Shown here piece by piece: positions 5,186 to 10,195 of a stretch of 64,000 nt of DNA. The number at the start of each line of letters is the position of its first letter. Position 1 is the first letter of the stretch. A model generated the notes under the pieces. The model saw only the letters and a list, made by a program, of their open reading frames with translations, was not told where the DNA came from and did no database searches. Origin of the DNA: Ureibacillus sp. FSL W7-1570 (GTDB lineage: Bacteria > Bacillota > Bacilli > Bacillales_A > Planococcaceae); assembly GCF_038593265.1 (NCBI RefSeq), contig NZ_CP151979.1:682001-746000 (forward strand), in the 5' to 3' direction. Position numbers and translations under genes: made by a program.

Positions 5186-6139
5186 TTATTCAAAAAACTT
5201 CGCCACATTTTGATTCCGCATGGCTTCTTGTTTTTGTTTGTTGTTTACATGGGTATAAATTTGCGTGGTACTTAAATTGGTATGGCCCATCAACTCTTGT
5301 ACCGTCACAAGATCGACCCCTTCCCGCACAAGTCTTGTGCCGAACGTATGTCTCAATTTATGGGAAGATAACTTTTTGCTTTGTAAATAATGGAAGTCGG
5401 GTAAACTTTTCAGCCTATTGAATGCCTCTTCTGAAATCATTTGAATTCTTCTTCTTGAAAGTCTTTCTCCCCGTTTTGAAACAAAAAAGGCATTGCGATG
5501 TTCCTGCTTTGGCGTTGGCCGATACATGTGTTCGTACTCCATTAGTAAATGAAACAAGGGGGCAGGCAATGGAATATAGCGAGCTTTGCTCCCTTTTCCC
5601 ATGACATTAATGCCGGGTTCGTTTTCATCCCGAATGAGATCTGATGTGTTTAAATGATAGATTTCAATGACACGTAATCCAGCCAGACTCATAAGCATCA
5701 ATATGCATTTATTACGGATATGGTATTGGTCATGTTTAATGCATTGAAATAGCAAACGAAGCTCTTCATCGTTTAAATAGGTGGGCAATGGATTTTTTTC
5801 AGTTTTTGCTATATCGATTTCAAGAGCCGGGTTAAAGTTCAGCTCCTCCGCTTTCACAAGGGATTTAAAAAACGTTCGCAAAGACATCAATCTCCGGTTG
5901 CGCGTTGTTTTTGCCTTGCCTTTTTGCGTTTTCCTCAAATATTCTTGGATATTTTTCGATCCCACTGTGTCGAGTGGAATCAACTTTTCTTCCTTTTCAA
6001 ACAGGAAAGTTAGAAAAGACTGCACATCAGATAGATAACATTTAATTGTATAAGGCGAATAGCCCAAATCCTCCAGATAGGTTTTAAAAATATCGATTTC
6101 ATTTTCATAATGGTCTAAGACTTGTTGTGATTCCATCAT
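5186..6139 (-). CDS. XerC/XerD-like tyrosine recombinase
   Basis: This 317-residue site-specific recombinase has an N-terminal SAM-like/core-binding domain (about residues 15-100) and a C-terminal catalytic domain. The catalytic set is visible: Arg in LAGLRVIEI (about residue 155), a Lys in MGKGSKARYIP, HKLRH (HxxR, about 263), GHTNL, and the nucleophile in TQIYTHV (about 293). An AAGAGG Shine-Dalgarno precedes the start. It is monocistronic. Length and architecture fit the Xer group, but the sequence alone does not say whether it is chromosomal XerC/XerD or a paralogue of mobile origin; no phage or ICE genes surround it. Two palindromes (5016-5071 and 6257-6286) lie on either side. Confidence 0.85.
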   Translation of the reverse strand: MMESQQVLDHYENEIDIFKTYLEDLGYSPYTIKCYLSDVQSFLTFLFEKEEKLIPLDTVGSKNIQEYLRKTQKGKAKTTRNRRLMSLRTFFKSLVKAEELNFNPALEIDIAKTEKNPLPTYLNDEELRLLFQCIKHDQYHIRNKCILMLMSLAGLRVIEIYHLNTSDLIRDENEPGINVMGKGSKARYIPLPAPLFHLLMEYEHMYRPTPKQEHRNAFFVSKRGERLSRRRIQMISEEAFNRLKSLPDFHYLQSKKLSSHKLRHTFGTRLVREGVDLVTVQELMGHTNLSTTQIYTHVNNKQKQEAMRNQNVAKFFE

Positions 6140-6522: not shown

Positions 6523-6611
6523 TTTTATTTGTCAAAATTCATAAAGCTATTTTTATCTGGAGAGAAAATTGTTATGATTTGAAAAAGTGCATATAAAGGA
6601 GAGGAAACAAA

Positions 6612-7787
6612 ATCGCCAGAACAGTTATATTCATTTTATCGGTACTTTTTTTAGCAGCGTGCAACATAGATTCGGAAAATGCTTCGGATATTTCATCCCC
6701 GCCAAAAATAGAAACGGAAGAGCCTCTAACTGTACCCGATGCTCCGGTGACATATACCGCAACCATTTCGGCGGTCGGCGATATTTTATTACATAATTCT
6801 GTCTATGAAGATGCATCCATCGGGAATCAACAATACGATTTCACCAAAATGTTCCGTGAGGTGAAGCCTTATTTGGAAAGTGCGGATATCACGGTGGCGA
6901 ACTCGGAAAGTATTATCGGCGGAAAAGAGTTGGGGCTTTCCAGTTATCCTCAATTCAACAGCCCGTTTGAAATCGGCGACGCATTGAAAGATTCGGGTGT
7001 GGATGTGGTGAATATGGCCAACAATCATACACTCGATCGTGGGGAGCGTGCCATACTGAATGCAACCAACTATTGGAACCAGATCGGTATCATCTATGTT
7101 GGGTGTGCCGCAACAGAAGAGGAATCAAAAATTATCAAAACGATAACGAAAAATCATATTACCTTTTCTTTTTTAGGGTATACATACGGGACAAACGGGA
7201 TTTCCGCGCCTCCAGGCAAGGATTATTTAGTCAATTATATAAATTTGGAAAAAATGAAAGAGGATATCCAACGGGCAAAGGAAATTTCTGATGTGGTTGT
7301 CGTGAATGTACATATGGGGAATGAATATGAGCGCCAATTCAATGATTTCCAGGATGAGATTGCCCAACATTTGGCTGATTATGGTGCCGATATCGTTTTT
7401 GCCCACCATCCCCATGTATTGCAGCCGGCGAAATGGTACACAGGGGAAAAAGGGAATCAAACCTTTGTCATTCATTCGTTAGGCAATTTTTTATCTGGAC
7501 AAGATCGGCTTTATACACGTATTGGAGCCATTTTGCAATTGGATGTGAAGAAGACGGTCAATTATGACGAGTTTGGCAAAGAGCGTTCAACGATTGAAGT
7601 CATGAATCCCCAGTTGCTTCCAACTTATGTAAAGTTTCAACGTTGGAGAAATTATGAAATTCTTCCATTATATAGCGTTACCAACGAGGAACTGCAAAAT
7701 GCCCAAGGGATTTATGAAGAAATCAAATCCCATATGATGCAGTACATGCCTGAAATCACATTTATTGAATGGGAGCCGGTACAATAA
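6612..7787 (+). CDS. CapA/PgsA-type metallophosphatase-like lipoprotein with non-canonical start
   Basis: The body matches the CapA/PgsA poly-gamma-glutamate family (calcineurin-like fold): SAVGDILLH, NSESIIGG, NMANNHTLDRGE, NVHMGNEYE, FAHHPHVLQP and SLGNFLSG occur in order. The frame stays open upstream of the GTG at 6747 and encodes a lipoprotein signal, ARTVIFILSVLFLAAC, with a lipobox Cys at about residue 17. Yet no ATG, GTG or TTG exists between the stop at 6594 and that GTG. An AGGAGAGG site (6597-6604) sits 7 nt before ATC at 6612, so initiation at ATC, or a mutated/misread ATG, is likely. No capBC genes are nearby, so a polymer-synthesis role is not implied. Confidence 0.78.
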   Translation: MARTVIFILSVLFLAACNIDSENASDISSPPKIETEEPLTVPDAPVTYTATISAVGDILLHNSVYEDASIGNQQYDFTKMFREVKPYLESADITVANSESIIGGKELGLSSYPQFNSPFEIGDALKDSGVDVVNMANNHTLDRGERAILNATNYWNQIGIIYVGCAATEEESKIIKTITKNHITFSFLGYTYGTNGISAPPGKDYLVNYINLEKMKEDIQRAKEISDVVVVNVHMGNEYERQFNDFQDEIAQHLADYGADIVFAHHPHVLQPAKWYTGEKGNQTFVIHSLGNFLSGQDRLYTRIGAILQLDVKKTVNYDEFGKERSTIEVMNPQLLPTYVKFQRWRNYEILPLYSVTNEELQNAQGIYEEIKSHMMQYMPEITFIEWEPVQ

Positions 7788-7803: not shown

Positions 7804-7840
7804 AAGCTGAGTATACAGTGGCTATACTTAGCTTTTTCTT
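7804..7840 (+). terminator. Terminator after capA-like gene
   Basis: AAGCTGAGTATA/TATACTTAGCTT (one G-T pair) with a 7-nt loop is followed by TTTCTTTTT. Confidence 0.8.
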
Positions 7841-8886: not shown

Positions 8887-10195
8887 ATTTTTCCGCTTCT
8901 TTTTTGTCCTTTTCCAATATCGTTAAAATGACCATTTCAATCCGATTTTGTTCAAATTCGAGGATTTGGAACCTCAAGTTTTCATATTCGATGACTTTAT
9001 TTTGTTTTGGATACCGTCCCAATTGTTCCAGCAAAAAGCCGTTGAGCGTGTCAAAATCCTCGGATGGCAGATGGATCCCCAATTCATCTTCAATTTTATA
9101 TAAATGGGTGATTCCTTTAATCAAATATTGATTTGGAGCAATTTTTTGAATTTCCTTTTCTTCTTCATGGGTTTCGCTATGGATTTCCCCCACGATTTCT
9201 TCAATGACATCTTCTATCGTCACCAATCCTTCTGTACCACCGTATTCATCAATAACAATGGCCATATGAACATTGCTCTTTTTCATCGTTTGGAACAATA
9301 TATCGATTGTTAGCGAATCGATGACAAAGGTTGGTTTTCGCAATATTACCCTCAAATTAAACGGTTTTGTCCCCCAGTTCAAATGAAGCAATAAATCTTT
9401 CACATGCAAAATTCCAACGATATGATCGATATCTTCTTCATAAACGGGATAGCGGGTATATCGGTTTTCATTGACAATTGCCAACGTTTCTTCCAAAGTC
9501 GCTTCCATCGGGATGGCAACGATATCTACCCGGTGGGTGAAAATATCCGTTACCGATTTGTCATTGAATTCAAATACGTTTTGGATCATTCTGCTTTCGC
9601 TTTTTTTGATGGTTCCCTGAATATCGCCCAATTCGACCATCATCCGGATTTGTTCTTCCGTAGCCTCTTCACGGATGACTTTCTCATTCATTTTCAACAG
9701 ACGAAGAACTGCATTCGTTGAAAAACTGAGCACTTTTACAAGTGGATAACATACATAAAAAATCAACGTCAGTGGCAATGCCACCATATTGGCAACACTT
9801 TCATACCGCTGCAATGCGATTTTTTTCGGCACCAGTTCCCCAAATACGAGGGTAAAATAAGATAAAACGGCAGTAATGACGATAACGGAAAGAATATCGA
9901 GCACTTCCAGGGATAAAGGGATGCCCAGGTCAAATAAAACTTGGGCAAAACGGTCCGAAAAATTATCTGCAGCGAAGGCGCTTGCCAAGAAACCCGCCAA
10001 TGTAATCCCGATTTGGATGGTGCTTAAAAAACGGCTCGGTTCGGAAATTAATTTATCCAATAATTTTGCTTTACGGTCGCCTTTTTCCGCCAAATTTTTT
10101 ATTTTTATTTCATTCAATTCCACAAGCGAAAATTCAGATGCGGCAAAAAAGGCGTTTAATAATACAAGGAAAATCAATACGATGAAAGTCGTCAT
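8885..10195 (-). CDS. CNNM/CorC (hemolysin-C-like) membrane protein
   Basis: The 436-residue protein has the full family layout: an N-terminal DUF21/CNNM membrane domain with about four helices (residues 1-180, including FAASEFSLVE and GELVPKKIALQR), a CBS pair (about 200-330, including MVELGDIQGTIKKSE, TRYPVYEED and VIDEYGGTEGLVTIEDVIEEIVGEI), and a C-terminal CorC/HlyC-associated domain (about 350-430). Related proteins take part in Mg2+/Co2+ export or homeostasis; B. subtilis has several paralogues such as YhdP and YrkA. It is monocistronic. Substrate is an inference from the family. Confidence 0.9.
   Translation of the reverse strand: MTTFIVLIFLVLLNAFFAASEFSLVELNEIKIKNLAEKGDRKAKLLDKLISEPSRFLSTIQIGITLAGFLASAFAADNFSDRFAQVLFDLGIPLSLEVLDILSVIVITAVLSYFTLVFGELVPKKIALQRYESVANMVALPLTLIFYVCYPLVKVLSFSTNAVLRLLKMNEKVIREEATEEQIRMMVELGDIQGTIKKSESRMIQNVFEFNDKSVTDIFTHRVDIVAIPMEATLEETLAIVNENRYTRYPVYEEDIDHIVGILHVKDLLLHLNWGTKPFNLRVILRKPTFVIDSLTIDILFQTMKKSNVHMAIVIDEYGGTEGLVTIEDVIEEIVGEIHSETHEEEKEIQKIAPNQYLIKGITHLYKIEDELGIHLPSEDFDTLNGFLLEQLGRYPKQNKVIEYENLRFQILEFEQNRIEMVILTILEKDKKEAEK

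Follow-up and report, generated by a model that had tools for sequence, protein, structure and literature searches.

Probable near-cognate AUH start codons in the CapA-like lipoprotein gene of Ureibacillus sp. FSL W7-1570 and its relatives

A CapA-like lipoprotein gene of Ureibacillus sp. FSL W7-1570 very probably initiates translation at an ATC codon, at position 6612 of the window, judging from comparison with its homologues. The window is the whole stretch of DNA that was analysed, 64,000 nucleotides of contig NZ_CP151979.1. A near-cognate codon (ATT, ATA or ATC; ATH below, AUH in the message) was the best start candidate in 18 of the 20 homologues from the genus, and the predicted near-cognate start is thus a state common to the genus, which is not visible from a single sequence.

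Results

The CapA-like gene and its flanking elements

The features of the locus are collected in Table 1. The sequence-only reading of this DNA had claimed that no canonical start codon lies between the upstream stop at 6594 and a GTG at 6747, that a lipoprotein signal with the lipobox LAAC is in frame upstream of this GTG, and that a Shine-Dalgarno sequence is correctly spaced to the ATC at 6612. All three claims were borne out. Reading of the sequence found no in-frame ATG, GTG or TTG between the stop and the GTG, so that no usable canonical codon precedes the conserved N-terminus in the window. The ATC is followed directly by IARTVIFILSVLFLAAC, which contains the lipobox (residues 14-17, Cys codon 6660-6662), and the Shine-Dalgarno sequence lies at an aligned spacing of 9.

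In a profile search PF09587 (PGA_cap) was matched at full length (positions 1-255 of 255) with 239.5 bits, against a cut-off of 27. The encoded protein consists of a signal peptide, a linker and then the complete PGA_cap domain. Having both a lipobox signal peptide and a domain score above the curated threshold, it belongs to the CapA-like PF09587 lipoproteins. The genome is a single contig of 3.28 Mb, 100% complete, and the gene is therefore not at a contig edge.

The -10-like element upstream would give a short leader of about 30 nt, and elements resembling it were seen by eye at about the same position in several relatives. Downstream, the terminator-like hairpin suggests that the CapA-like gene is transcribed as a single-gene transcript. 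The next gene, separated by a gap, encodes an alpha/beta hydrolase and runs from 7941. A local RNA hairpin was considered as a cause and rejected, as the leader and first codons fold no better than shuffled sequences (z -0.87).

Table 1. Features of the CapA-like gene and its surroundings (positions in the window)
Feature	Position	Strand	Remarks
XerC/XerD-like tyrosine recombinase gene	5186-6139	-	just upstream, divergent; over Pfam, below NCBIfam cut-offs
Extended -10-like promoter element TG-T-TATGAT	6570-6578	+	found by eye; absent from the consensus scan, in which a -35 is required
In-frame upstream stop TAA	6594-6596	+	read from sequence
Shine-Dalgarno AAAGGAGAGG	6595-6604	+	aligned spacing 9 to ATC
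Inferred start codon ATC (AUC)	6612-6614	+	ATT/ATA/ATC at the inferred start in 18/20 genus homologues
CapA-like (PGA_cap, PF09587) lipoprotein gene	6612-7787	+	391 codons plus stop; TAA 7785-7787
Lipoprotein signal peptide	6612-6662	+	17 codons, start through lipobox Cys; LAAC 6651-6662
First canonical codon GTG	6747-6749	+	sole ATG/GTG/TTG before the PGA_cap domain
Terminator-like hairpin with T tail	7804-7834	+	one of 2 terminator-like sites found in the region, where shuffles give an expected 1.5

Homologues within the genus

A protein search (E 1e-30 or better) found the CapA-like gene in 20 of 25 genus genomes; locus L002, which with an equal length of 14,552 bases is apparently the same contig as L005, was not counted separately. 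Four further genomes gave no match, and G020 holds only a C-terminal remnant (query residues 345-390; L140, G020:C1:2070001-2090000, about 9200-9337), which sits immediately before the conserved hydrolase gene. No plasmid relatives of the gene were found.

All 20 homologues have an in-frame ATH codon at an aligned spacing of 8-9 from the Shine-Dalgarno sequence, compared with 49 ATH codons among the 299 in the remainder of those signal peptides. We judge the ATH at the start position to be more than chance, in a comparison of related rows that carries no formal P value. The inferred start codons were ATT in ten rows, ATA in seven, ATC in the window only, and ATG in L009 and L010. All 18 ATH rows, drawn from several species, have the codon at this standard distance of 8-9; two adjacent ATH codons were possible in seven rows (L007, L008, L013 and L018-L021) and the one at spacing 8-9 was taken, so that the uniform spacing is partly the analyst's choice. 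Counted from the ATH codon and including the lipobox position, each of the 18 has 16-17 codons. In L009 and L010 the ATG is at spacing 5, with ATT or ATA beside it at 8; its use there indicates that AUG is not forbidden.

The pattern of substitution supports translation of the N-terminus. Second-position differences in the signal peptide were fewer than third-position differences in 16 of 16 row pairs, and the closest pair, L012 and L013, differs in this segment by four synonymous changes and no others. Nonsynonymous codon differences outnumbered synonymous ones in 8 of the 16 pairs. Signal peptides usually conserve hydrophobicity and not sequence, and such an excess is hence usual in them.

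Two rows, L020 and L021, have the lipobox Cys replaced, yet ATT and the hydrophobic segment are still present; their protein may have become a membrane-anchored form. In L005 (G015), apparently from a metagenome assembly, an in-frame TGA closes the open frame at 354 codons, through either assembly error or truncation.

Competing start codons

A canonical codon was regarded as usable if it had a Shine-Dalgarno score of 5.5 or more and lay ahead of the hydrophobic core. Thirteen of the 20 rows (L003-L008, L011-L014, L016, L017 and L022) have no such codon. Some of these do carry canonical codons elsewhere: an ATG upstream of the Shine-Dalgarno sequence (L007, L008), a GTG or TTG overlapping it (L016, L017, L022), or a TTG within the hydrophobic part (L006, and L017, where it scores 7.6). 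In L015 and L018-L021 an ATG, GTG or TTG falls within or just after the Shine-Dalgarno sequence and scores 5.6-9.7 in another pairing register; these codons might be used as starts. Under the plain criterion applied to the outgroup (below), 8 of the 20 genus rows count as canonical (L009, L010, L015 and L017-L021), the codon counted in L017 being the TTG inside the signal peptide.

These data bear on three other explanations of the ATC. If the start codon had been lost by mutation or base-calling error, leaving a gene broken or misread in this genome only, a lone genome with a near-cognate ATC exactly at the expected ATG site would look just as the window does. However, relatives of 59-79% identity show the same state while differing in the third base, and the gene has an open reading frame with a complete Pfam domain. 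We consider such a loss highly improbable, and the earlier suggestion that an ATG was mutated or misread finds no support, since the corresponding codon is ATT or ATA in other genomes of the genus. No more probable is a start at GTG 6747 or its counterpart, yielding a cytoplasmic protein without an anchor. This GTG is the first canonical codon, just ahead of the PGA_cap domain, and a gene finder limited to ATG, GTG and TTG would pick it. But a signal peptide of equal length is kept in the 18 ATH rows (two of them without the lipobox Cys), and by eye the GTG is not conserved. In L005, L012, L013 and L014, moreover, no canonical codon occurs until after the GD motif of the domain, and a canonical start there would delete part of it. 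We rejected GTG 6747 because the signal peptide would be lost and no Shine-Dalgarno sequence was seen by eye before it. The further suggestion of the sequence-only reading, that only the GTG might work, is unsupported, given the signal peptide kept in the relatives and the position of the first canonical codon in those four rows.

An upstream canonical start, from which the signal peptide would be reached either directly or through readthrough or a frameshift, is only marginally less improbable than these two. In-frame canonical codons do occur upstream in L007, L008, L015 and L018-L021, and in 7 of the 20 genomes translation from an out-of-frame start no more than 60 nt away would run past the ATH codon. 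This genome is among the seven, with a GTG 25 nt upstream of the ATC that has a Shine-Dalgarno score of 5.6. Against this, in-frame stops leave merely 1 to 5 codons ahead of the ATH codon in L003, L004, L016 and L022, and the other 13 genomes have no such out-of-frame start, which makes frameshifting unlikely as a shared mechanism, though single genomes may still use it.

Shine-Dalgarno strength and control genes

The 18 ATH rows had a mean Shine-Dalgarno score of 13.1. A set of 130 canonical genes taken from this genome averaged 10.5 (Mann-Whitney P 0.002) and the 70 outgroup loci 10.35 (P 0.0006), the rows not being independent in either comparison. The gene in the window scored 11.7, at the 60th percentile; the median of the 130 canonical genes was 11.1.

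As a positive control we used infC, for which 25 of 25 genus genomes have ATT where it is expected after GGAGG. This ATT was taken as the start because infC is a known case and the spacing is 9; most genomes also have an ATG four codons further on. Together with the 18 ATH rows among 20, the control lends support to the proposal of the sequence-only reading that translation of the CapA-like gene may begin at ATC as that of infC does at ATT.

To the comparison of gene families, 24 genomes contributed 40 stretches, the window included, and 24 families present in at least 8 genomes each. No member was flagged in 19 families. The 38 flagged instances, among 356, fell into five families: dnaI (15/20), the CapA-like gene (8/20), infC (8/20) and two others (4/11 and 3/20), whose flags look by eye like alignment overrun into the leader before an ATG. 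ATH starts that have a canonical codon about five codons away or less escape this control. It is free of shadow ORFs and superseded an initial control in which 144 of 519 ORFs had been flagged, antisense shadow ORFs accounting for many. When this genome was compared with G020, 21 of 132 orthologous pairs were flagged; inspected by eye, infC and dnaI were the only two that resembled ATH starts. The remainder were one apparent shadow ORF and 18 pairs with a canonical codon slightly inside the alignment, which look like conserved leaders, as judged by eye with the Shine-Dalgarno sequence not checked for each. Judging by both controls, ATH starts do not seem to be a general feature of these bacteria.

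Other genera and the tree

Matches at 1e-30 were obtained in 140 other genomes of the family, and 70 loci were fetched as an outgroup. In 69 of the 70, a canonical codon with a Shine-Dalgarno sequence at spacing 4-12 precedes the protein. The best-scoring canonical codon was ATG in 31 loci, GTG in 23 and TTG in 16. The exception, L083 (G157, from another genus), has a strong Shine-Dalgarno sequence followed at spacing 8 by ATT, and its canonical codons score poorly; it also has an ATG very close to the Shine-Dalgarno sequence. L083 is possibly an independent ATH case.

On a tree of the mature domain that included the outgroup, the related rows require a minimum of two changes between ATH and canonical codons. 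The same tree implies at least five start-codon changes among the 20 genus rows, the two ATG rows included. As the tree does not resolve the base of the genus, the ATG of L009 and L010 was either kept or regained. The third-base events, with T, A and C all seen, are too few to prove selection against G.

The start column of dnaI

The helicase-loader gene dnaI of this genome (L143, 1213501-1233500, minus strand) scored 393 bits with NF006505, whose cut-off is 228, which confirms its identity. Its start column holds ATC or ATA in 44 of 59 loci of the family, and ATG, GTG or TTG in the other 15. Within the genus, AGGTGA is followed after five or six bases by ATC or ATA in all 23 genomes read, while the 36 loci from other genera have ATC or ATA in 21 cases and all 15 of the canonical codons. 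That relatives have canonical codons in this very column suggests that it is the start. Six of the 23 genus genomes (G001, G007, G011, G015, G017 and G023) have an in-frame GTG three codons upstream of the column, as does G180 outside the genus. A TAG in another frame just upstream is probably the end of the preceding gene, and translational coupling may therefore help dnaI.

Discussion

The PF09587 domain of this gene is shared by the CapA/PgsA lipoproteins of poly-gamma-glutamate synthesis and by the lasso-peptide epimerase MslH. Weak sequence matches were obtained to 8gq9 and other solved chains, whose deposited name is poly-gamma-glutamate synthesis protein and which we take to be MslH; the gene itself missed the NCBIfam cut-off for MslH (44 bits against 700). 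The CapC family (PF14102) was found in none of the 25 genus genomes, with a positive Bacillus subtilis control. The gene is thus not encoded with CapC, as CapA/PgsA of poly-gamma-glutamate synthesis is, and is not the CapA of such a CapC-bearing operon.

The textbook gene with an AUU start is infC, which encodes IF3, for example in Escherichia coli. Binns and Masters reportedly described an AUU start in pcnB of the same bacterium in 2002. The pcnB case resembles that proposed here in that an inefficient start sets a low level of expression; it concerns another gene, in a distant bacterium. The CapA-like gene shares with infC a near-cognate AUH codon behind a Shine-Dalgarno sequence, common to several species. 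However, infC is autoregulated by its own product, whereas the CapA-like protein is an exported lipoprotein. In other bacteria infC starts at AUC (Streptomyces; PMC5472188) or at AUA (Staphylococcus aureus; PMC13009471). AUU, AUA or AUC starts have been documented in few bacterial genes other than infC (PMC5472188, PMC13009471). Two of them, ccpN (AUA) and cvfC1 (AUU) of S. aureus, are like the CapA-like gene in being Bacillota genes outside infC with a conserved AUH codon and a strong Shine-Dalgarno sequence. They are different genes, and their starts were verified by Ribo-Ret and reporters (PMC13009471), whereas that of the CapA-like gene is predicted by comparison. Streptomyces sigR (PMC5472188) is likewise a gene other than infC with a noncanonical, IF3-repressed start that is misannotated in genomes; it encodes a sigma factor and starts at GTC, unlike the AUH of the CapA-like gene. 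Our search of the open-licence literature found no report of a CapA-like gene with a start of this kind.

By analogy with infC, pcnB, ccpN and sigR, ATC 6612 is probably a weak, IF3-sensitive codon. In the mechanism that we propose, the gene would be intact and the ATC would be decoded as formyl-methionine by the initiator tRNA. The well-spaced Shine-Dalgarno sequence would hold the 30S subunit on the message, and the near-cognate codon would pair with only two bases of the initiator anticodon, that is, poorly. Because of this poor pairing IF3 would reject most complexes, and little protein would be made. The genus would mostly have retained a weak AUU, AUA or AUC where an AUG could have stood at a good position; the likeliest reason is that small amounts of the exported, phosphoesterase-like lipoprotein are what is required. 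In S. aureus grown in poor medium, reporters of cvfC1 (AUU), ccpN (AUA) and citZ (AUA) yielded about 10% of the expression obtained with AUG; for ccpN the figure rose to as much as 30% in rich medium (PMC13009471). The GTC start of Streptomyces sigR is repressed by IF3 (PMC5472188). These cases suggest by analogy that the CapA-like lipoprotein, too, would be made in small amounts.

A low yield that brings the benefit of a low dose is, on these analogies, a reading we favour only slightly. It has to be set against the possibility that the ATH start is real but neutral, tolerated in a gene that is little needed, which competes only with the dosage part of our interpretation. The tree has few independent start-codon events, the gene is absent or a mere remnant in 5 of 25 genus genomes, ATG has been regained or retained in one clade (L009 and L010), and the Shine-Dalgarno sequence of this genome's copy is merely average. 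All of this fits a neutral state, but all 18 ATH rows have kept a Shine-Dalgarno sequence at standard spacing, with a mean score above that of canonical genes, and AUG is a single third-base change away, yet 18 of 20 rows are without it. We therefore hold neutrality to be rather unlikely.

Gene finders that allow only ATG, GTG and TTG misplace starts of this type; here they would strip a lipoprotein of its signal peptide. Shared across a genus, the predicted start state provides an example for comparative study of how the dose of a protein may be set by a weak start codon. The CapA-like gene and dnaI suggest that such starts can be found by comparison of homologues, as opposed to genome by genome.

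For dnaI, too, our search of the open-licence literature found no paper that links the gene with such start codons. More doubtfully, and as a conjecture that we think will probably not hold, infC, dnaI and the CapA-like gene might form an IF3-sensed translational regulon in this Bacillota family through their shared AUH starts. If so, a shortage of IF3 relative to ribosomes would raise helicase loading and an envelope enzyme along with IF3 itself, and replication and envelope work would be tied to initiation capacity. The AUC of dnaI would then be an example from a replication gene, of which the same search found none. The significance of the CapA-like start would be greater if it and dnaI proved to be jointly controlled by IF3, and dnaI may be the more interesting case of the two.
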